Virus record (IMG/VR): IMGVR_UViG_3300025913_000102 | Location: 1 to 25,533 of that record | Origin: a virus | Direction: 5' to 3' (one strand) | DNA length: 25,533 nucleotides | Shown: in pieces, positions 7,040-25,533 of the stretch | Position numbering within the stretch: position 1 is the first letter of the stretch | Layout: every line of letters starts with the position of its first letter | Notes under the pieces: generated by a model | Database searches by the model: none | Told to the model about the DNA's origin: nothing | What the model saw: the letters and a program-made list of their open reading frames with translations, nothing else | Position numbers and translations under genes: made by a program

Positions 7040-8032
7040 GTGGCCGTCACGCTCACTGATAAGGTACGGTTCTACGAGTCGGTCTTCGGCTCGGGCCGAA
7101 TGTCGCGCAACTGTCGCAACTTCGACGTCCGGTGCCCAGTGTGCCTCGAGAAGGGACCGGTCCCGCCTGACAAGAAAAAGCTGGCGATCCTGACGGAGGA
7201 CGACCGGTGCCACTGCTGGGTCTGCGGCTACAAGAGCCGCACGTTGGCGCCCCTGATCAGGAAGTACGGCAACCTAGCACAGCTGCAGGACTACGTCCAG
7301 CGCTTCATGCCGGCAGGCACCTCGACCTGGTACCCCCGGTGCATCATCGTCACGGGCGACCTGCCTCCTCCTCCGCCCCTGCAGCTACCGAAGGACTTCA
7401 GGCTGCTGGCCAACACCCGCAGCCGGGACCCTGACGTGGCCGCCTGCAGGCGGTACCTGTACGGCCGGGGCCTGACGGACGATGACCTGTGGTTCTACAA
7501 GCTGGGGTACAGCAACGAGGCCACGTGGCACCGGCGGGTCATCATGCCTTCCTTTGACCGCGATGGGGCCCTCAATCACTACGTCGGCAGGTCGATCGAC
7601 AGGGGCAAGCGCCCCAAGTACGAGTCGCCCGAGGGGGACCGCAAGCAGGTCATCTTCAACGAGATCAACATTGACTGGTCGCGGCAGCTGGTCGTCTGCG
7701 AAGGCGCCTTCGACCTGGTCAAGTGCGGCGACAACGCGGTCCCACTGCTGGGCAGCGACCTCAACGAGGAATCAGCGCTGTTCAACGCTATCGTCGCCCA
7801 CGGCACGCCGGTCGCCCTGGCGCTCGATGCTGACATGCGGCTGACCAAGGCCCCGCGCGTGGCCCAGAAGCTGGCAGACTACAACATCGACGTGTCGATG
7901 GTGTCAGTGGCCACCGACCCAGGGGACGCCACCAAGGCAGAGTTCAAGGCGGCCTTGAGGGATGCCCGCGCCTTCGACTGGAACCTGACGTTCTTCGACA
8001 GGCTGGATCACGCGGCCCTCATCCGCCTGTGA
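7040..8032 (+). CDS. DNA primase-like protein, CHC2 zinc finger plus TOPRIM (330 aa)
   Basis: Residues 32-62 hold a zinc ribbon (CPVC at 32-35 and CHCWVC at 57-62), as in DnaG-type primases. A TOPRIM-type catalytic region follows: VVCEGAFDLV with E221 and ALALDADM with D263 and D265. Together these define a bacterial-style primase that lays RNA primers on the lagging strand. It is shorter than DnaG, with no clear helicase-interaction domain. GTG 7040 is the chosen start, since the stretch before the finger (VRFYESVFGSGRMSRN) looks like family sequence, but its ribosome-binding site is weak. Its stop is followed at once by the gp47-like gene. Confidence 0.75.
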   Translation: MAVTLTDKVRFYESVFGSGRMSRNCRNFDVRCPVCLEKGPVPPDKKKLAILTEDDRCHCWVCGYKSRTLAPLIRKYGNLAQLQDYVQRFMPAGTSTWYPRCIIVTGDLPPPPPLQLPKDFRLLANTRSRDPDVAACRRYLYGRGLTDDDLWFYKLGYSNEATWHRRVIMPSFDRDGALNHYVGRSIDRGKRPKYESPEGDRKQVIFNEINIDWSRQLVVCEGAFDLVKCGDNAVPLLGSDLNEESALFNAIVAHGTPVALALDADMRLTKAPRVAQKLADYNIDVSMVSVATDPGDATKAEFKAALRDARAFDWNLTFFDRLDHAALIRL

Positions 8033-8076
8033 AGGCGGTCCTGTACAGCGGAGGATCAGCGTTTTACAGTCAGACC

Positions 8077-8730
8077 GTGCTGCATGTCAGGATCGCCCAC
8101 ATCGCAGACGTGCACTGGAGGGGCCTTTCGCGGCACGATGAGTACCGCGAGGTCTTTTCAGCGTTCGTTGACCAGGTCAAGCAGGCAGGTGCAGACCACA
8201 TCTTCGTGGGAGGCGACATCTTCCACACCAAGACCTCAGGCCTGTCTCCTGAGTACATCGAGCAGCTCAGCTGGTGGGTGACAGCGATGGCCGACGTGGC
8301 CGAGGTCCACCTGACCCTGGGCAACCACGACGGCAACCTCGTCAACCTCTCCCGGCAGGACGCCGTCACGCCCATCGTGGAGGCCCTGCGTAACCCGCGC
8401 GTGCACCTCTACAAGAAGAGTGGGACGTACGAGTTCACGCCGGGCTACTGCTGGTGCATCTTCAGCCTGTTCGACGAGGAAGGCTGGCGTAGCGTGGAGC
8501 CGGTGCCCGGCAAGGTCAACATTGCCTGTTACCACGGCCCGGTCCGCGGGGCCACGACGGAGAGCGACTGGCTGATCGAGGAAGGCCTGACGGTCGACTT
8601 CTTTGAGCGGTTCGATTTCTGCCTGCTGGGAGACATCCACAAGATGCAGTACTTGGGCACTCGCCTCGTGGAGATGGAAGTCGAGGAGTCTGAGCTTCAC
8701 CGCTACCCGGGGGCCGAGGTCGTCAAGTGA
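8077..8730 (+). CDS. 47: Mre11/SbcD/gp47-like nuclease, catalytic part only (217 aa)
   Basis: A calcineurin-like metallophosphoesterase with the Mre11 motifs in order: IADVH (D11, H13), VGGDIFH (D47), LGNHDG (N83, H84), CYHG (H153) and LLGDIHK (H188). Family members continue past this point with a YPGS..QQN.GE strand and a capping domain; here the frame ends 29 residues after H188 and that missing portion is found at the N-terminus of the next gene. The start is uncertain: GTG 8077 (MLHVRIAHIADVHW) is preferred because the fold begins there, but GTG 8029, overlapping the primase stop as GTGA, would add 16 residues. T4 gp47 works with gp46 to resect DNA ends for recombination. Confidence 0.8.
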   Translation: MLHVRIAHIADVHWRGLSRHDEYREVFSAFVDQVKQAGADHIFVGGDIFHTKTSGLSPEYIEQLSWWVTAMADVAEVHLTLGNHDGNLVNLSRQDAVTPIVEALRNPRVHLYKKSGTYEFTPGYCWCIFSLFDEEGWRSVEPVPGKVNIACYHGPVRGATTESDWLIEEGLTVDFFERFDFCLLGDIHKMQYLGTRLVEMEVEESELHRYPGAEVVK

Positions 8731-11342
8731 GCAAGGTCAGGATTCGAACCCACCGGCCGTGGATCGCCTACCCCGGCAGCCCCGTCCAGCAGAACTACGC
8801 CGAAGAGCTTCGTCATGGCTTCCTGCTGTGGGACATCAAGAGCAAGGAGCAGTTCGACGTCAGGTTCTGCGAGCTGCCCAACCCGCGCCCGTTCGTCACC
8901 GTCGATTGGGCCGGCACGGTCGAGGCCACGCTGGAAGCCTCACGCGTTCACCCGATGGGCGCACGCTTCCGGATCCGCAACCGCGACGTCCTCCCCCAGA
9001 AGGAGGTCGCCCAGCTGACGCTCGAGCTGCGCAACGAGATGAAGGCATCCGAGGTCACCTTCAAGAGCGAGAGGAGGGTCAACCGCGACGTCATCTCGGC
9101 AGGTTCGACCACGCTGGTCAAGGCCGACCTGCGCAACCCCGACGTGCTGATGCGACTGCTCCGCGAGTATCACAAGGAAGCGGGCCTGTCGGACGACGAG
9201 TGGTCCACCGTCAAGGATCAGGTGACTGCCTACCTGCAACAGGCCCTCGATGGCGACGATGTGGTCCGAAACACCAAGTGGTCGCTCCGGCACGTGGCCT
9301 GGGACAACACGTTCGCCTACGGCAAGGGCAACGCGATCAACTTTGACCAGGCCGCGGGTGTGGTCGGCATCTTCGGCCCGAACGCCCGCGGCAAGTCGTC
9401 AGTGGTGGGCACCATCCTGTACGGCCTCTTCAACACGACAGACCGTGGCAACGTCAAGAACCTGCACGTCATCAATGTCAGGCACCCGTACTGCTACACC
9501 CGGTCCGTCGTCAACGTCAACGGCACCAACCACTCCATCGAGCGGCAGACCGTCAGGTACGAGACAAAGAAAGGTCAGAACTACGCAGGCACCCAGCTCA
9601 ACGTCTTTCGAATCGCAGAGGACGGCTCTGCCCACGACCTGGCCGGCGAACAGCGCAACGACACCGAGAAGGTGATCCGGCGCCTCATCGGCACGCCCGA
9701 GGACTGCCTGCTGACTTCCGTCGCCGCGCAGGACGACGTGAAGCTGTTCATTAACCAGGGCACTACCAAGCGCAGGAAGGACTTGTCGAGGTTCTTGGAC
9801 CTCGACATCTTCGACAAGATGCACGAGCTGGCCAAGCTCGACGTCAATGCGAACAAGGCCGCCCTGAAGCAGCTGCCCGACCGCGACTGGCAGCGCCTGG
9901 AGGCCTCGCTCCTGGAGGCGCTGGCGGACCACGAGGCTAAGATCCGAGAGTGCGACCGCCAGCTGCACCAGGCAGGCCAGGATCTGGCTGACGTCCAGGC
10001 ACAGCTGGCGGCCTTCAAGGACTTCAAGCCGGTCACTCAGAACCAGGTCGACCAGCAGCGACACTGGGTGGCCGACGAGGAGGTACGCGCCCAAAAGCTG
10101 CGCACTGAGCTCGAGCAGGCCCGCGACCAGATCGCCGACAGGCAGAAGAAGGCGCAGAAGGTCGACTCCGTCCTGGCAGACAACGACCTGGACGCCCTGA
10201 AGAAGAGGTTGGAGTCGCTGCGGACGCTGGAGTCGTCTCTGGAGGCCCTGAAGGCCACCCATGAGAGGGACGCTGCCCTGTTGAAGCAGCAGGAGAAGTC
10301 CCTCAAGATCCTGGACGACGTGCCTTGCGGCGACTCGTACCCGGGCTGCAAGTTCATCAAGGACGCCTTCAAGCAGAAGGACCGCGTCGACCCGCAGCGC
10401 GACAGGGTGCAGCGGGCCCTGGAGAGGGTGCAGAAGGCAGAAGAGTCGCTGGCCGTGCTCAAGGCCGACGACTTGCCGGCTCGTGTCTCCAAGTTGGAAC
10501 AGCTGCGAACGATGAAGGCCACGCTGGCCACTGAGGTCGCACGCCTCGAGGTGACCCGTGATCGCAAGGAGCACGACCTGGTCCTGGCCGACGCACGCCT
10601 GGAAGACGGTCGCCGGCGCCTGTCGGAGCTGGAGGAGGCCCTGCGCAACGAGGAGAACGCAGAGGTCGTCGCCCTCCGCAACAGGCTCGACGGCATGCAG
10701 CGGTCTGCCAAGGCACATGACTCCGAAAGGCTGCGCCTGGCCGCCGAGGTGGGTCGGACGCGGTCCGACCTCGCCAAGATGGAGGTCGACCGGCGCCGCC
10801 GCCTCGACGTCCTCCAGGCGATGAGGGTCCACGAGCTGGTCGTCCAGGCGTACTCTCGCCGCGGCATCCCCAGCCTGATCGTGGCCTCGCAGCTGCCCGC
10901 TATCAACGCGGAGATCGCCCAGATCCTGGCCGGCATCGTCAACTTCACTGTGGAGCTGGAGCAGGACGACGACAGCGACTCGATGGAGGTCTTCATCGAC
11001 TACGGCGACAGTCGCCGCATCATCGAGCTGGCCTCAGGCATGGAGAAGACGATCGCGTCCATCGCCATCCGGGTCGCCCTGATCAACGTCACCTCGCTGC
11101 CCAAGACTGACATGTTCATCATCGATGAGGCCTTTGGCCCCCTCGATCCGACGGGCGTGGAGGCGTGCAACCGGCTGCTGGTCTCCTTGAAGCGGTACTT
11201 CCGCGTCATCGTCGTCATCACCCACGTGGAGGGCATCAAGGACGTCGCGGACCACGTCATCGAGGTCGGCCGCGTCGAGAGCGATGCCCGGGTGTTGTAC
11301 GATGATACGTGGCCCAAAGACCGTACCTCCGCGACAGGCTGA
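8727..11342 (+). CDS. 46: Rad50/SbcC/gp46-like ATPase fused to the C-terminal part of Mre11 (871 aa)
   Basis: The N-terminal 190 residues are not Rad50: WIAYPGSPVQQNYAEELRHG then FLLWDI are the last strands of an Mre11 nuclease domain, followed by its capping region. The ATPase begins near residue 185: Walker A GPNARGKSS (K223), long coiled coils about 370-530 and 545-700, a central hook with Cys534 and Cys541 (CX6C), signature LASGMEK at 768-774, and Walker B MFIIDEAFGPLD (D800, E801). GTG 8727 overlaps the previous stop as GTGA. The product would act as the ATP-driven clamp of a Mre11-Rad50 end-processing complex. A frame joined to the upstream gene would give about 1,088 residues. Confidence 0.85.
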   Translation: MSKVRIRTHRPWIAYPGSPVQQNYAEELRHGFLLWDIKSKEQFDVRFCELPNPRPFVTVDWAGTVEATLEASRVHPMGARFRIRNRDVLPQKEVAQLTLELRNEMKASEVTFKSERRVNRDVISAGSTTLVKADLRNPDVLMRLLREYHKEAGLSDDEWSTVKDQVTAYLQQALDGDDVVRNTKWSLRHVAWDNTFAYGKGNAINFDQAAGVVGIFGPNARGKSSVVGTILYGLFNTTDRGNVKNLHVINVRHPYCYTRSVVNVNGTNHSIERQTVRYETKKGQNYAGTQLNVFRIAEDGSAHDLAGEQRNDTEKVIRRLIGTPEDCLLTSVAAQDDVKLFINQGTTKRRKDLSRFLDLDIFDKMHELAKLDVNANKAALKQLPDRDWQRLEASLLEALADHEAKIRECDRQLHQAGQDLADVQAQLAAFKDFKPVTQNQVDQQRHWVADEEVRAQKLRTELEQARDQIADRQKKAQKVDSVLADNDLDALKKRLESLRTLESSLEALKATHERDAALLKQQEKSLKILDDVPCGDSYPGCKFIKDAFKQKDRVDPQRDRVQRALERVQKAEESLAVLKADDLPARVSKLEQLRTMKATLATEVARLEVTRDRKEHDLVLADARLEDGRRRLSELEEALRNEENAEVVALRNRLDGMQRSAKAHDSERLRLAAEVGRTRSDLAKMEVDRRRRLDVLQAMRVHELVVQAYSRRGIPSLIVASQLPAINAEIAQILAGIVNFTVELEQDDDSDSMEVFIDYGDSRRIIELASGMEKTIASIAIRVALINVTSLPKTDMFIIDEAFGPLDPTGVEACNRLLVSLKRYFRVIVVITHVEGIKDVADHVIEVGRVESDARVLYDDTWPKDRTSATG

Positions 11343-11611
11343 TCGAAGACAGGCCTGAGGGCTTCGTCGTCATCGTGCCGGTGGGGGCTGAACCTCCTGT
11401 CCCGCTGGCGTGCCCGGTCTGCTCCCACGTGATCCGCTCACGGGACGATGAGACCGCGTACCGCGACTTGGGCTGCTGCGACAGGTGCCTGAGGCTGTGG
11501 GCCGCGGCCCGGCGCAAGCTGTGGCTTGCCGGTTGGCGTCCCACGGCTGAACAGGTGGCGGCAGCTGAGGCCGACCGCGTGCCCTTGGCGCTCGTCTTTC
11601 AGCCCGACTAG
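11309..11611 (+). CDS. Zinc-ribbon phage protein (100 aa)
   Basis: GTG 11309 lies inside the end of the gp46-like gene (34-base overlap, different frame). Two cysteine pairs, CPVC at 35-38 and CCDRC at 56-60, make a four-Cys zinc ribbon. The phrases RPEGFVVIVPVGAE, DDETAYRD and WLAGWRP resemble a small zinc-binding protein I recall from T4-like marine phages. Its role is unknown; nucleic-acid binding or late transcription is possible from the fold alone. It stands between recombination genes and the packaging module. Confidence 0.7.
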   Translation: MAQRPYLRDRLIEDRPEGFVVIVPVGAEPPVPLACPVCSHVIRSRDDETAYRDLGCCDRCLRLWAAARRKLWLAGWRPTAEQVAAAEADRVPLALVFQPD

Positions 11612-11650
11612 CCGGCGACGCGGCCATAGTTACGGCGGGGAGCCGTGACA

Positions 11651-12031
11651 ATGGCAGACATTGACTTCAACGCACTGGGCCAGGCGATCGACACGACCTG
11701 GGGCCGGTCCTCGACGCCGCAGACGGCGTCGTACTCCGTCAAGCTGAGGATGCTGGGGCCTGACCGTCTTGAGGCCTCGTACGCGGCCGTCGTCAACTTC
11801 GGCACCGAGAGGCAGATGATCGACATGAAGCGTCGCTACGTCGACGAGTCGAAGTCCGTCACCTCGGCCGTCATCAAGGGCGTCAAGGCCAACTACAAGG
11901 AGCTGGCCGGCGAGTCGCTGAAGGCCAAGGAGCTGAGCGCCGTCGACAGCCTGGAGATCATCAACCTCAACGTCCACAACGCCCGGCGCACCGCCTACTA
12001 CCGGCGGAAGACCGTCTTCGAGATCGGCTGA
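11651..12031 (+). CDS. Conserved small protein upstream of terminase (126 aa)
   Basis: ATG 11651 is preferred over GTG 11645 because GGAG at 11639-11642 is eight bases away. The protein has a WGRSSTPQTASYSVKLRM strand, an INFGTE-like turn (VVNFGTERQMIDMKRRY), and ends NARRTAYYRRKTVFEIG. I recall this type from T4-like marine phages as an uncharacterised protein. It occupies the slot where T4 has the small terminase gp16, but it is beta-rich with no visible DNA-binding helix-turn-helix, so that assignment is not supported by sequence. The stop overlaps the terminase start as TGATG, so the two are probably coupled. Confidence 0.7.
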   Translation: MADIDFNALGQAIDTTWGRSSTPQTASYSVKLRMLGPDRLEASYAAVVNFGTERQMIDMKRRYVDESKSVTSAVIKGVKANYKELAGESLKAKELSAVDSLEIINLNVHNARRTAYYRRKTVFEIG

Positions 12032-21834: not shown

Positions 21835-23781
21835 ATGAAGTCGTTCACGTTCGAACAGCTCGCCGCCGGCATCAAGGAGCGGCACGTCGGGGCAGAGCGC
21901 GCTCGCCTCGTCGAGAAGTGGAGCCGGACCGGCCTGCTGCGCGGCCTCGATGGCTTCAAGCGCGAGACCATGGCCCAGCTGCTGGAGAACCAGGCGGCCC
22001 AGGTCCTGAAGGAGGCCGGTAACTCGATCTCCACCGGCGGCGCCAACGTCGCCTCGAGCGGCCAGATCCAGGGCTTCTCGAACATCGCCTTTCCGATCGT
22101 CCGCCGCGTCTTCGGTGGCCTGGTCGCGAACGAGCTGGTGTCCATCCAGCCGATGAGCCTGCCTTCGGGCCTCATCTTCTACCTGGACTACACCTACGGC
22201 AGCAACGTCGGCGGCAACGCCGGTGTCGGCCTGTCTGACTCCGCGACGGCTGACACCTACACCAGGGGCCAGTCGATCTACAACAACCCGACGGGCCGCG
22301 GCATCCAGTCGGGCTCGCTGGCCACGGGCGGCATGTACGACCTGGTCAACACGGGCTACACCAAGGTCCACGTGCAGAGCACCACTGTCTCGGGCTCGAA
22401 CCTCGCCGTCGGCGTCTTCAGCGGCCCGTCGCAGAGCTTCGTCTCCGGCACGATGGCGAACTACACGGACTTCTCGGGCAGCAACGCCCGGTTCATGAAC
22501 TTCGACCCGCAGATCGACGTCGACTTCCAGAGCGGCCTGCTCAACCTGTGCTTCGTCCACCTCTCGGTGGCGGCGCTGCAGGCGGGCATCCCGAACGGCG
22601 ACTTCCTCGCCGTCGACCAGATCGGCATCTTCGGCTTCCAGGGCAACGGTGCCGCGGTGGAGTGGACCGACTCCTACCAGAGCGGCAAGGGCGTCCTCAA
22701 CCTGCGCCGGCTCAACAAGCGCGGCAACTTCGTCGCCCCGACCTACACGGCCGGCGGCAACCTGATCCAGGGCGGCACCTTCACGCCGGCCCCGCTGAAC
22801 GGGTCCCACATCCAGTTCGTCCTCCGGCTGACGCCTGCCGGCGCCGCCCCGACGATGAACTCGGCCACGCAGAACGTGTCGATGGCGATCGCTGACCAGG
22901 TGACGAGCCTGGGCGAGTCGACCAACTCCGGCGCGGGCACCACCCTGACGATCCCGAGCTTCGAGTCGGACTTCGGCACCACGCCGTCTCCGGCCATCCC
23001 CGAGATCGACATCAAGATCGAGTCGCTGAGCATCACCGCGACGACCCGCAAGCTGCGCGCTCGCTGGTCCCCGGAGCTCGCGCAGGACCTCAACGCGTAC
23101 CACTCGATGGACGCTGAGGTCGAGCTGACCAGCATCCTGTCGGAGCAGATCGCCCTCGAGATCGACCGCGAGATCCTCCAGGACCTCGTCACCGAGGCGA
23201 ACGGCGCGAACATGTACTGGAGCCGCGCTCCGGGCAAGTTCGTCAACAAGCTGACTGGCCAGCCCCAGACGCTGAACACCAGCCTGAGCATCGGCCCGCA
23301 GTTCACCGGCACCGTCCGCGAGTGGTACGAGACGCTGATCGAGACGATCATCGATTGCGCCAACACCATCCACCGGAAGACCCTGCGCGGGTCGGCCAAC
23401 TTCATGGTGACCAGCCCGGACGTCGCCACGATCCTCGAGTCCTCGGTGCTGTACAAGCCGAAGTTCTCGATCGACGGTGAGGGCCAGGTGGGCTCGCCCT
23501 TCACCATCGGCGCCGAGGCGATCGGCACCCTGAGCAACCGCTTCACCGTCTACAAGGACCCGTACTTCCCCCGGAACCGGATCCTGGTCGGCTACAAGGG
23601 CGGCAGCTACCTCGAGACGGGCTACGTCTACAGCCCCTACGTGCCGCTGATCGTCACCCCGACGATCTTCGCGCCCGAGGACTTCACGCCTCGCAAGGGC
23701 GTGATGACCCGGTACGGCAAGAAGATGGTCCGCTCGGACTTCTACGGCACCGTCACGATCCTCGACATGAACATCATCTGA
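21835..23781 (+). CDS. 23: Major capsid protein, T4 gp23-like (648 aa)
   Basis: AGGAG at 21824-21828 gives a strong start. The central signature ARWSPELAQDLNAYHSMDAE and the following ILSEQIALEIDREILQDL match T4 gp23 closely (residues from about 411). YLETGYVYSPYVPLIV and MTRYGKKMV near the end also fit. The N-terminus is a propeptide: L58-K-E60 followed by AGNSISTGG mirrors the T4 cut LTE/AEIGG after residue 65. The mature shell protein would be 588 residues. It is about 125 residues longer than T4 gp23, mainly from an extra region between about 110 and 395. Confidence 0.95.
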   Translation: MKSFTFEQLAAGIKERHVGAERARLVEKWSRTGLLRGLDGFKRETMAQLLENQAAQVLKEAGNSISTGGANVASSGQIQGFSNIAFPIVRRVFGGLVANELVSIQPMSLPSGLIFYLDYTYGSNVGGNAGVGLSDSATADTYTRGQSIYNNPTGRGIQSGSLATGGMYDLVNTGYTKVHVQSTTVSGSNLAVGVFSGPSQSFVSGTMANYTDFSGSNARFMNFDPQIDVDFQSGLLNLCFVHLSVAALQAGIPNGDFLAVDQIGIFGFQGNGAAVEWTDSYQSGKGVLNLRRLNKRGNFVAPTYTAGGNLIQGGTFTPAPLNGSHIQFVLRLTPAGAAPTMNSATQNVSMAIADQVTSLGESTNSGAGTTLTIPSFESDFGTTPSPAIPEIDIKIESLSITATTRKLRARWSPELAQDLNAYHSMDAEVELTSILSEQIALEIDREILQDLVTEANGANMYWSRAPGKFVNKLTGQPQTLNTSLSIGPQFTGTVREWYETLIETIIDCANTIHRKTLRGSANFMVTSPDVATILESSVLYKPKFSIDGEGQVGSPFTIGAEAIGTLSNRFTVYKDPYFPRNRILVGYKGGSYLETGYVYSPYVPLIVTPTIFAPEDFTPRKGVMTRYGKKMVRSDFYGTVTILDMNII

Positions 23782-24035: not shown

Positions 24036-24308
24036 ATGAACGACCAGACCAACAAGCACGCCACCGTCCGGACCCGCACCGACCGCCGGGGCCAGCTCCG
24101 CACCGAGACGGCGGGTCGCGACGCCGGCTTCGACGTGGCGATCTCCACCGACACCCGCAACAACAGCACCCGGCTCTTCATCGATGAGCTGGGTCGCAAG
24201 AGCCCGTACATGAACATGTTCGGCCTGGAGCTCAACGGCCGACAGGCCCGCACCCTGTACAGGACGCTCCACCAGCACTTCGCTGCGCAGGGCAAGCAGC
24301 TGGGCTGA
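24036..24308 (+). CDS. Hypothetical protein (90 aa)
   Basis: The frame is open upstream, but ATG 24036 has a strong GAGGAAG site at 24023-24029 and is preferred. The protein is basic and Arg/Thr/Asn-rich, with the segments ATVRTRTDRRGQLRTETAG and LFIDELGRKSPYMNMFGLEL and a helical C-terminus. It is soluble with no recognised motif. It follows the structured leader, which may control it. Confidence 0.6.
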   Translation: MNDQTNKHATVRTRTDRRGQLRTETAGRDAGFDVAISTDTRNNSTRLFIDELGRKSPYMNMFGLELNGRQARTLYRTLHQHFAAQGKQLG

Positions 24309-24387: not shown

Positions 24388-24936
24388 ATGAAGATCAGCA
24401 AGAAGGAGGCCTTGGCGCTCGCCAAGGTCCTGCACCAACACAACCCGTGCGCGCTCCTGATGAGCGCGCACACGCAGCACGATGAGGTGCTGGCGGCCGT
24501 GGCAGCTCGCATCGACAGGTTCATCCTGGTCGACGAGGCGGATCACGACTACGTGGACGAGGACTTCGTGTACAAGGACTCTCCTGTCAAGGAGCAGGCC
24601 TGCGATTTCTTCGGTGACGAGGACAGCACCCAGGTCCCCGAGGACGAGGCGCTCAGCTCCTTCGTCTCCGGCGAGAACCTCCACGACCTGCTGCCCGCCA
24701 AGTCGACGGCCGGACTCGTCGAGTTCGAGCACGTCACTGAGAGCCAGGCACCGTACGTGTCCCTGCTGCTGGACGGCGGCACCGTCATCGAGGGCGTCAC
24801 CGGCCTGGTTCGGTCGGGCAAGTCGCTCGAGGTGACCTCGCGCGGCGGGCTCAAGGCCAACTTCGAGTTCTCCAGGTTCCCGAAGGATTGGGTCGCCCTG
24901 CTGCCCGCCCGGCAGGCCTTCGCGGTGGAGGCCTGA
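24388..24936 (+). CDS. Hypothetical acidic protein (182 aa)
   Basis: AGGAG at 24373-24377 precedes ATG 24388. The N-terminus MKISKKEALALAKVLHQHNP is helical. The centre is acidic (DEADHDYVDEDF and FFGDEDSTQVPEDE). The C-terminal half has alternating hydrophobic and charged residues, possibly a small beta barrel (YVSLLLDGGTVIEGVTGL). No family is recognised. The opening resembles that of the following 140-aa protein. Confidence 0.6.
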   Translation: MKISKKEALALAKVLHQHNPCALLMSAHTQHDEVLAAVAARIDRFILVDEADHDYVDEDFVYKDSPVKEQACDFFGDEDSTQVPEDEALSSFVSGENLHDLLPAKSTAGLVEFEHVTESQAPYVSLLLDGGTVIEGVTGLVRSGKSLEVTSRGGLKANFEFSRFPKDWVALLPARQAFAVEA

Positions 24937-24940
24937 GACC

Positions 24941-25363
24941 ATGAAGCTCAACGTCTCCCCCAAGGAGCTGCTGGCCCTCCACAACCTGCTGCTGGCCGCG
25001 TGTCAGCCGCCTTACAAGAAGTACGAGCCCGGCGTAGACGCGGTCCCCGATGAGGTGTACCTGGGCCAGCTCTATGCCCGCGTCCGGTCCCTCATCGTGG
25101 CCAGCGTCGGCCGGCAGTCGGACGACCCGACCGACGTCAAGAAGGCCGGCATCGACGCCGCCTTGGCCCGGGAGCAGGGCAAGATCGACAAGCTGAAGGT
25201 CGAGCTGGTCGACGTCAAGAAGGAGCAGGCCCAGCTCCTCGTCGGGTCGAAGCCCAACAGCGACTTCCTGGTGTCCGAGGACGACGACGACCTGCAGGCC
25301 CCGGTGTACCCGACCCGGCCCCGCCGTTCGACCGGCGGCGGTCACCGGGGCGGTAAGAAGTGA
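24941..25363 (+). CDS. Hypothetical protein with coiled-coil centre (140 aa)
   Basis: ATG 24941 is four bases after the previous stop, so the two genes are probably cotranscribed. The N-terminus is helical (KELLALHNLLLAACQ) and recalls the previous protein. Residues about 75-102 are coiled-coil-like (AREQGKIDKLKVELVDVKKE). The tail is acidic then basic (RPRRSTGGGHRGGKK), likely flexible and nucleic-acid-friendly. The function is unknown. A hairpin and then a tmRNA gene follow. Confidence 0.6.
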   Translation: MKLNVSPKELLALHNLLLAACQPPYKKYEPGVDAVPDEVYLGQLYARVRSLIVASVGRQSDDPTDVKKAGIDAALAREQGKIDKLKVELVDVKKEQAQLLVGSKPNSDFLVSEDDDDLQAPVYPTRPRRSTGGGHRGGKK

Positions 25364-25395
25364 ACAACCCGACCCACGGGTGATACCTACAGCAT

Positions 25396-25415
25396 GGGCG
25401 GCCGCGGGGCCGCCC
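25396..25415 (+). terminator. GC-rich hairpin before the tmRNA
   Basis: GGGCGGCC (25396-25403), loop GCGG, GGCCGCCC (25408-25415): a perfect 8-bp stem with a 4-base loop, 33 bases after the last protein stop. No T-run follows (GCTCC). It is probably the terminator of the preceding pair, separating it from the tmRNA. Confidence 0.55.
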
Positions 25416-25420
25416 GCTCC

Positions 25421-25449: not shown

Positions 25450-25450
25450 G

Positions 25451-25533
25451 GGGGCGACAGGTTTCGACGTGGCAAGGATTCCTGACGCTGCAGGCACCGG
25501 CGCACGAGGGCCCGGGTCAACAACCCTAGTGAC
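25451..25533 (+). ncRNA. ssrA: tmRNA, 5' part (cut by the window end)
   Basis: GGGGCGACAGGTTTCGACGT (25451-25470) is the diagnostic 5' end of bacterial tmRNA; the GGTTTCGAC core is shared with actinobacterial tmRNAs, where the first seven bases pair with the 3' end and the TTTCGAC forms the D-loop-like part. Further along, a GCTGCAGGCACCGG segment recalls the region before pseudoknot 1, GGGT/ACCC can form a short stem, and CCCTAGTGAC is like the TAGTC that precedes the resume codon in E. coli. The peptide tag and 3' half lie beyond the window. tmRNA rescues stalled ribosomes by trans-translation; a phage copy would work with host SmpB. Confidence 0.85.

Follow-up and report, generated by a model that had tools for sequence, protein, structure and literature searches.

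A predicted one-piece tmRNA gene beside the virion genes of a T4-like large phage

Background

Huge phages that carry a tmRNA, some of them together with SmpB, have already been published (Al-Shayeb et al. 2020, PMC7162821), and a survey reported tmRNA in 402 of 18,146 phage genomes (PMC9004378). Given the published tmRNAs of huge phages, the gene described here is one more member of a class of phage genes already known. It was found in the IMG/VR virus record IMGVR_UViG_3300025913_000102, the whole of which (25,533 bases) was analysed and is called the window below. A first-pass annotation, made from the sequence alone, had placed a phage-encoded tmRNA at the window's last bases, and this was followed up by covariance-model, pattern and protein searches and by comparison with related contigs.

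The 5' end of the gene at the contig edge

The feature at the edge of the window is as follows.

25450..25533, + strand: 5' part of a predicted one-piece tmRNA gene

This stretch begins GGGGGCGACAGGTTTCGACGTGG and contains the signature of the 5' acceptor strand and D-loop, GGGGnnnGA..GGnTTCGAC. It comprises the 5' half of the acceptor strand, the D-loop (of the ordinary G18 type), the start of helix 2 and the first pseudoknot region. The contig end interrupts the gene, with the first 84 bases inside the window and the remainder beyond 25533. A local Rfam scan aligned it to RF00023 positions 1-83, reported as truncated at the 3' end, with 12.8 bits (E 0.0018) for the 84-nt fragment against a gathering threshold of 47 bits. 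Over the whole window, neither Rfam at the gathering threshold nor ARAGORN called a tmRNA, because just 84 nt of the gene are present. The pattern GGGGNNNGANNGGTTTCGAC, with up to two mismatches, occurred a single time in the window, compared with a mean of 0.08 in dinucleotide shuffles. The start motif reported at first pass is present and matched by RF00023, but its start at 25451 was one base late, the mature 5' end being at 25450.

The complete gene in a close relative

The decisive evidence for the window's tmRNA is comparative and comes from its relatives rather than from the 12.8-bit score of the fragment. The last 126 bases of the window are matched exactly by IMG/VR contig 3300025913_000081 (33,954 bases; loci L102 and L122/L123), and the first 84 nt of the tmRNA in that contig are identical to window positions 25450-25533. 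There the tmRNA is full-length (RF00023 positions 1-374, 73.7 bits), with a 7 bp acceptor stem (GGGGGCG/CGCCTCC) that includes G3:U70 and an intact T-arm with the T-loop TTCGATT. Its tag, ANGIASAPALAA, is read from GCC AAC GGC ATC GCT TCC GCT CCG GCC CTC GCG GCC TGA; ARAGORN calls this tmRNA yet assigns the wrong tag. Just upstream of the 126-base match, substitutions and one indel, located in a hairpin, separate the two contigs. The two were therefore not taken as one genome; 3300025913_000081 is a close relative, and that it is the same phage is unproven.

The acceptor 3' half and the tag frame, which the first-pass annotation had expected within about 350 bases, were both found in this relative. 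In the window's own gene, the 3' strand pairing with GGGGGCG would lie beyond 25533 and end in CGCCTCCA within ~370 bases of 25450. The window's 3' half and tag are thus taken from relatives, and its tag could differ, because Asp-Asn, which other tags have, is missing from the tag of the closest relative. With the 84 shared nucleotides, and with its alignment to the tmRNAs found at the same place in related phages, the proposed identity held, and on this comparison of sequences we regard 25450-25533 as the 5' end of a real one-piece tmRNA gene.

Neighbouring genes

The features between the capsid gene and the tmRNA are listed in order.

21835..23781, + strand: major capsid protein, T4 gp23-like, 648 aa, used as linkage marker (phrog_138, E 1.3e-74; relatives in IMG/VR and in the 'phages' collection)
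24036..24308, + strand: small ORF, 90 aa, between the capsid gene and the tmRNA (tblastn matches in 59 loci)
24388..24936, + strand: ORF, 182 aa, between the capsid gene and the tmRNA (weak matches in 8 loci, no PHROG match)
24941..25363, + strand: small ORF, 140 aa, directly upstream of the tmRNA (tblastn matches in 25 loci, e.g. L001 with 44%)
25394..25416, + strand: G+C-rich hairpin upstream of the tmRNA (visible in the sequence; one indel relative to the close relative)

In the window, 1.67 kb separate the capsid gene from the tmRNA. The 90-aa ORF is conserved in relatives, the 140-aa ORF is conserved there beside the tmRNA, and the hairpin is a candidate terminator-like or processing hairpin. 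Pairing of the 5' leader with the acceptor strand was also considered and was rejected, its signal being no higher than in shuffles. The structural and replication genes of the window are T4-like and encode terminase, portal, prohead protease, major capsid protein, primase, SbcC/SbcD and a RuvC-like resolvase. The tmRNA had been proposed to be phage-encoded, which agrees with the capsid, portal, terminase and protease genes in the same window and with the position of the gene being kept in related phage contigs. Downstream of the tmRNA in 3300025913_000081 (L123), methyltransferase-like and SGNH-type hydrolase-like ORFs are followed by virion-like ORFs, as read by eye from the translations only.

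By PHROG matches, SbcD (gp47-like) is split in the window, with the nuclease part at 8029-8730 and the C-terminal part fused to the N-terminus of SbcC at 8727-11342. The same split and fusion was seen in 5 of 5 relatives, and in L392 the two matched SbcD stretches lie ~320 bases apart, which rules out a sequencing frameshift in the window.

Lineage and linkage to the capsid gene

A capsid-protein scan gave 80 related contigs. In 12 of the loci examined, two of which (L014 and L021) share one tmRNA sequence, a complete tmRNA lies on the same strand as the capsid gene and 1.9-4.2 kb after it; L055, beyond these 12, ends inside a tmRNA. A search with a pattern for the tmRNA alone recovered 19 contigs, and 14 of the 15 tested, three of them already known from the capsid-protein scan, encode a capsid protein 73-86% identical to that of the window. 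Counted across the related contigs, distinct full-length tmRNAs number at least 32. The window falls in a supported clade of the capsid tree in which 18 of 19 rows have a tmRNA; 'none' in this tree denotes no tmRNA in the downstream stretch examined and is not proof of absence. A 278-kb relative has its tmRNA ~66 kb from the capsid gene. Related contigs reach 340 kb, which identifies this as a huge-phage lineage. This adds a further huge-phage lineage: its tmRNA is linked to the capsid gene and, within the clade of the window, almost always present, which marks it as a maintained function and not as a stray acquisition.

Among capsids that are named or published, the closest, with <60% identity in each case, are those of Microcystis phage Mel-JY01, Flavobacterium phage immuto and a 484-kb metagenomic phage. 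The capsid relatives were T4-like and huge phages, with no actinobacterial phage among the matches listed, and BLASTN of the tmRNA against named phages returned no tmRNA relative. The actinobacterial affinity hinted at in the first-pass annotation was not borne out, the lineage being that of a T4-like huge phage; 13 related contigs yielded no WhiB gene, an absence that taken alone is compatible with an actinobacterial host. Nor did the tag lead to a host, as had been hoped: the tag-region tmRNA pattern had no match in 380 genomes of the phylum of the Saccharibacteria sample or in 398 genomes of the phylum of the Pseudomonas sample.

Contigs break in or next to the tmRNA at window position 25533, at the end of L055 and at the starts of L102 and L137. 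Coexisting strains that share the conserved stretch are perhaps the cause.

Elbow variants in related tmRNAs

The unexpected part of the data is not the tmRNA of the window; it is an altered tRNA elbow in about a third of its relatives. Among 32 distinct tmRNAs, G18 occurs with U55 in 20 and A18 with G55 in 12, with zero exceptions (positions numbered by analogy with tRNA; L091, L059 and L027 were read by eye where the script failed, the wrong T-loop having been parsed for L027). The variants carry the T-loops GGCAGTA, GGCAGCG, TGCAATG and TGCGATT where the ordinary form has TTCRATT, and have A in place of the first G of the D-loop GG. The GGCAG T-loop is found in L104, L105, L106, L124, L126, L127, L128, L131, L135, L136 and L137, and the TGCRA T-loop in L027/L093 (same contig) and L091. 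The elbow state changes at least five times on the capsid tree; a paired-trait test on this tree carries no weight, the second trait having been entered from the same perfect table. Many related tmRNAs, those with the A18-G55 elbow, were matched by Rfam but missed by ARAGORN; they show that this program overlooks an entire group of phage tmRNAs.

That the GGCAGTA T-loop might be unique to phages was rejected. When bacterial genomes were scanned for the GGCAGTA T-arm, most matches came from Alphaproteobacteria, where the gene is two-piece, and Saccharibacteria, where it is one-piece. Of 73 parsed cellular cases, 67 were two-piece and had A-G at the corresponding D-loop positions. L278, L258, L276, L317 (Saccharibacteria or similar) and L277 hold bacterial one-piece tmRNAs that combine a GGCAGTA T-loop with an altered D-loop; none of these is called by ARAGORN. 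A G for U in the T-loop of the Reclinomonas mitochondrial and Caulobacter tmRNAs has been noted before (PMC1168896); no description of the linked D-loop change was found in a literature search of incomplete coverage.

Tentatively, there may be two interchangeable elbow forms, G18-U55 with TTCRA and A18-G55 with GGCAG or TGCRA, and the switch between them might reflect host adaptation or escape. Because the A18-G55 form loses one or both of the host-modified uridines (54, 55), it may adapt the RNA to the SmpB, ribosome or modification enzymes of a particular host, or may let it evade a host factor specific for the normal T-loop. Being related tmRNAs that differ at a single tertiary contact, the variants offer natural material for testing the role of the elbow in trans-translation.

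Proposed function and alternative explanations

It is very likely that a T4-like large phage carries its own one-piece tmRNA in the structural-gene region and that this RNA rescues stalled ribosomes through the machinery of the host. The RNA would be transcribed from between the capsid gene and the downstream virion genes, excised from the transcript and trimmed by host enzymes, which would also add the CCA tail, and charged with alanine through the G3:U70 pair. Host EF-Tu and host SmpB would bring it to ribosomes stalled on broken mRNA, where its short reading frame ending in Ala-Ala would free the ribosome and target the incomplete protein to host proteases. The phage would gain ribosomes that stay available during infection.

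Across relatives, acceptor and T-stem pairs vary on both sides, yet pairing persists. Of 30 rows parsed by script, 27 retain G3:U70, as does L020 (read by eye), which is what alanine charging would require. The complete tmRNAs of relatives carry tags such as ANDNGVAPLALAA, and the form ANDN...AA is found in most relatives other than 3300025913_000081. Tags are 12-15 residues long; of those read, a single one does not end in Ala-Ala, and most end in LAA. No SmpB was found in the 20 contigs searched (including those of 340, 309, 278, 211 and 200 kb), which are incomplete, so that the gene could lie outside them; 10 of 14 control genomes were positive. From this result, the phage RNA probably uses the SmpB of the host, and a phage-supplied tmRNA acting with host SmpB, EF-Tu and proteases is probably the simplest reading of the sequences. 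In L015, a divergent phage tmRNA at 11610-11965 has G-C instead of G-U as the third acceptor pair and G as discriminator, which makes its alanine identity doubtful.

A chance match in G+C-rich DNA would fit the 12.8 bits that the fragment scores alone, but with 0.08 matches expected per window even with two mismatches, exact identity to the start of a full tmRNA of 73.7 bits and a conserved position in relatives, it is refuted and has next to no probability. Hardly more probable is the capture of a host tmRNA end by a prophage, by which part of the gene would remain at the edge of the phage after integration into the host ssrA. Integration often takes place at tmRNA genes, and the contig does end inside this one; such remnants usually keep the 3' end of the gene, however, while the window has the 5' end, and a PHROG scan of window proteins revealed no integrase. 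Complete tmRNAs also lie well within long phage contigs, as a rule at a distance of 2-4 kb from the capsid gene and with virion genes on both sides, including downstream, which largely refutes capture. To judge from these contigs, the tmRNA gene is part of the phage genome and not an integration scar.

The phage tmRNA might also act mainly by redirecting tagging, its own tag altering the fate of proteins or competing with the host tmRNA, instead of by rescue. The tags do differ among relatives (ANDNGYAALAHAA, ANDNGIADYALVA and ANGIASAPALAA), and a tag-less phage tmRNA (DS6A) that inhibits the host tmRNA is cited in PMC11915505. Against this, the tags finish in Ala-Ala with few exceptions and mostly in LAA, the known degradation signal, and the tRNA-like parts are all intact; redirected tagging is accordingly unlikely, and ribosome rescue is preferred.

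Comparison with known systems

With the one-piece tmRNA of RF00023, the window shares the 5' signature, and the closest relative shares the acceptor stem with G3:U70, the T-arm, an Ala-Ala tag and a full-length match. Differences from the standard form are that the gene is phage-encoded, that the tag of the closest relative has no Asp-Asn and that about a third of the related phage tmRNAs have the A18-G55 elbow. The huge phages of PMC7162821 are similar in being large metagenomic phages that carry a tmRNA, whereas here the linkage of tmRNA and capsid gene is lineage-wide and no SmpB was found (20 contigs). The 484-kb record LR756508 ('phages' collection), whose capsid protein is 52% identical to that of the window, has no tmRNA within 8 kb of its capsid gene. 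The tmRNAs of Melnitz-like and SAR11 phages (PMC9004378) are likewise phage-encoded and thought to support translation during infection, but they are permuted, two-piece and of the alphaproteobacterial type, while those of the present lineage are one-piece. The A18-G55 elbow is common to the alphaproteobacterial two-piece tmRNA and to the variant subset of the present phages; the gene order is permuted in Alphaproteobacteria and standard in these phages.
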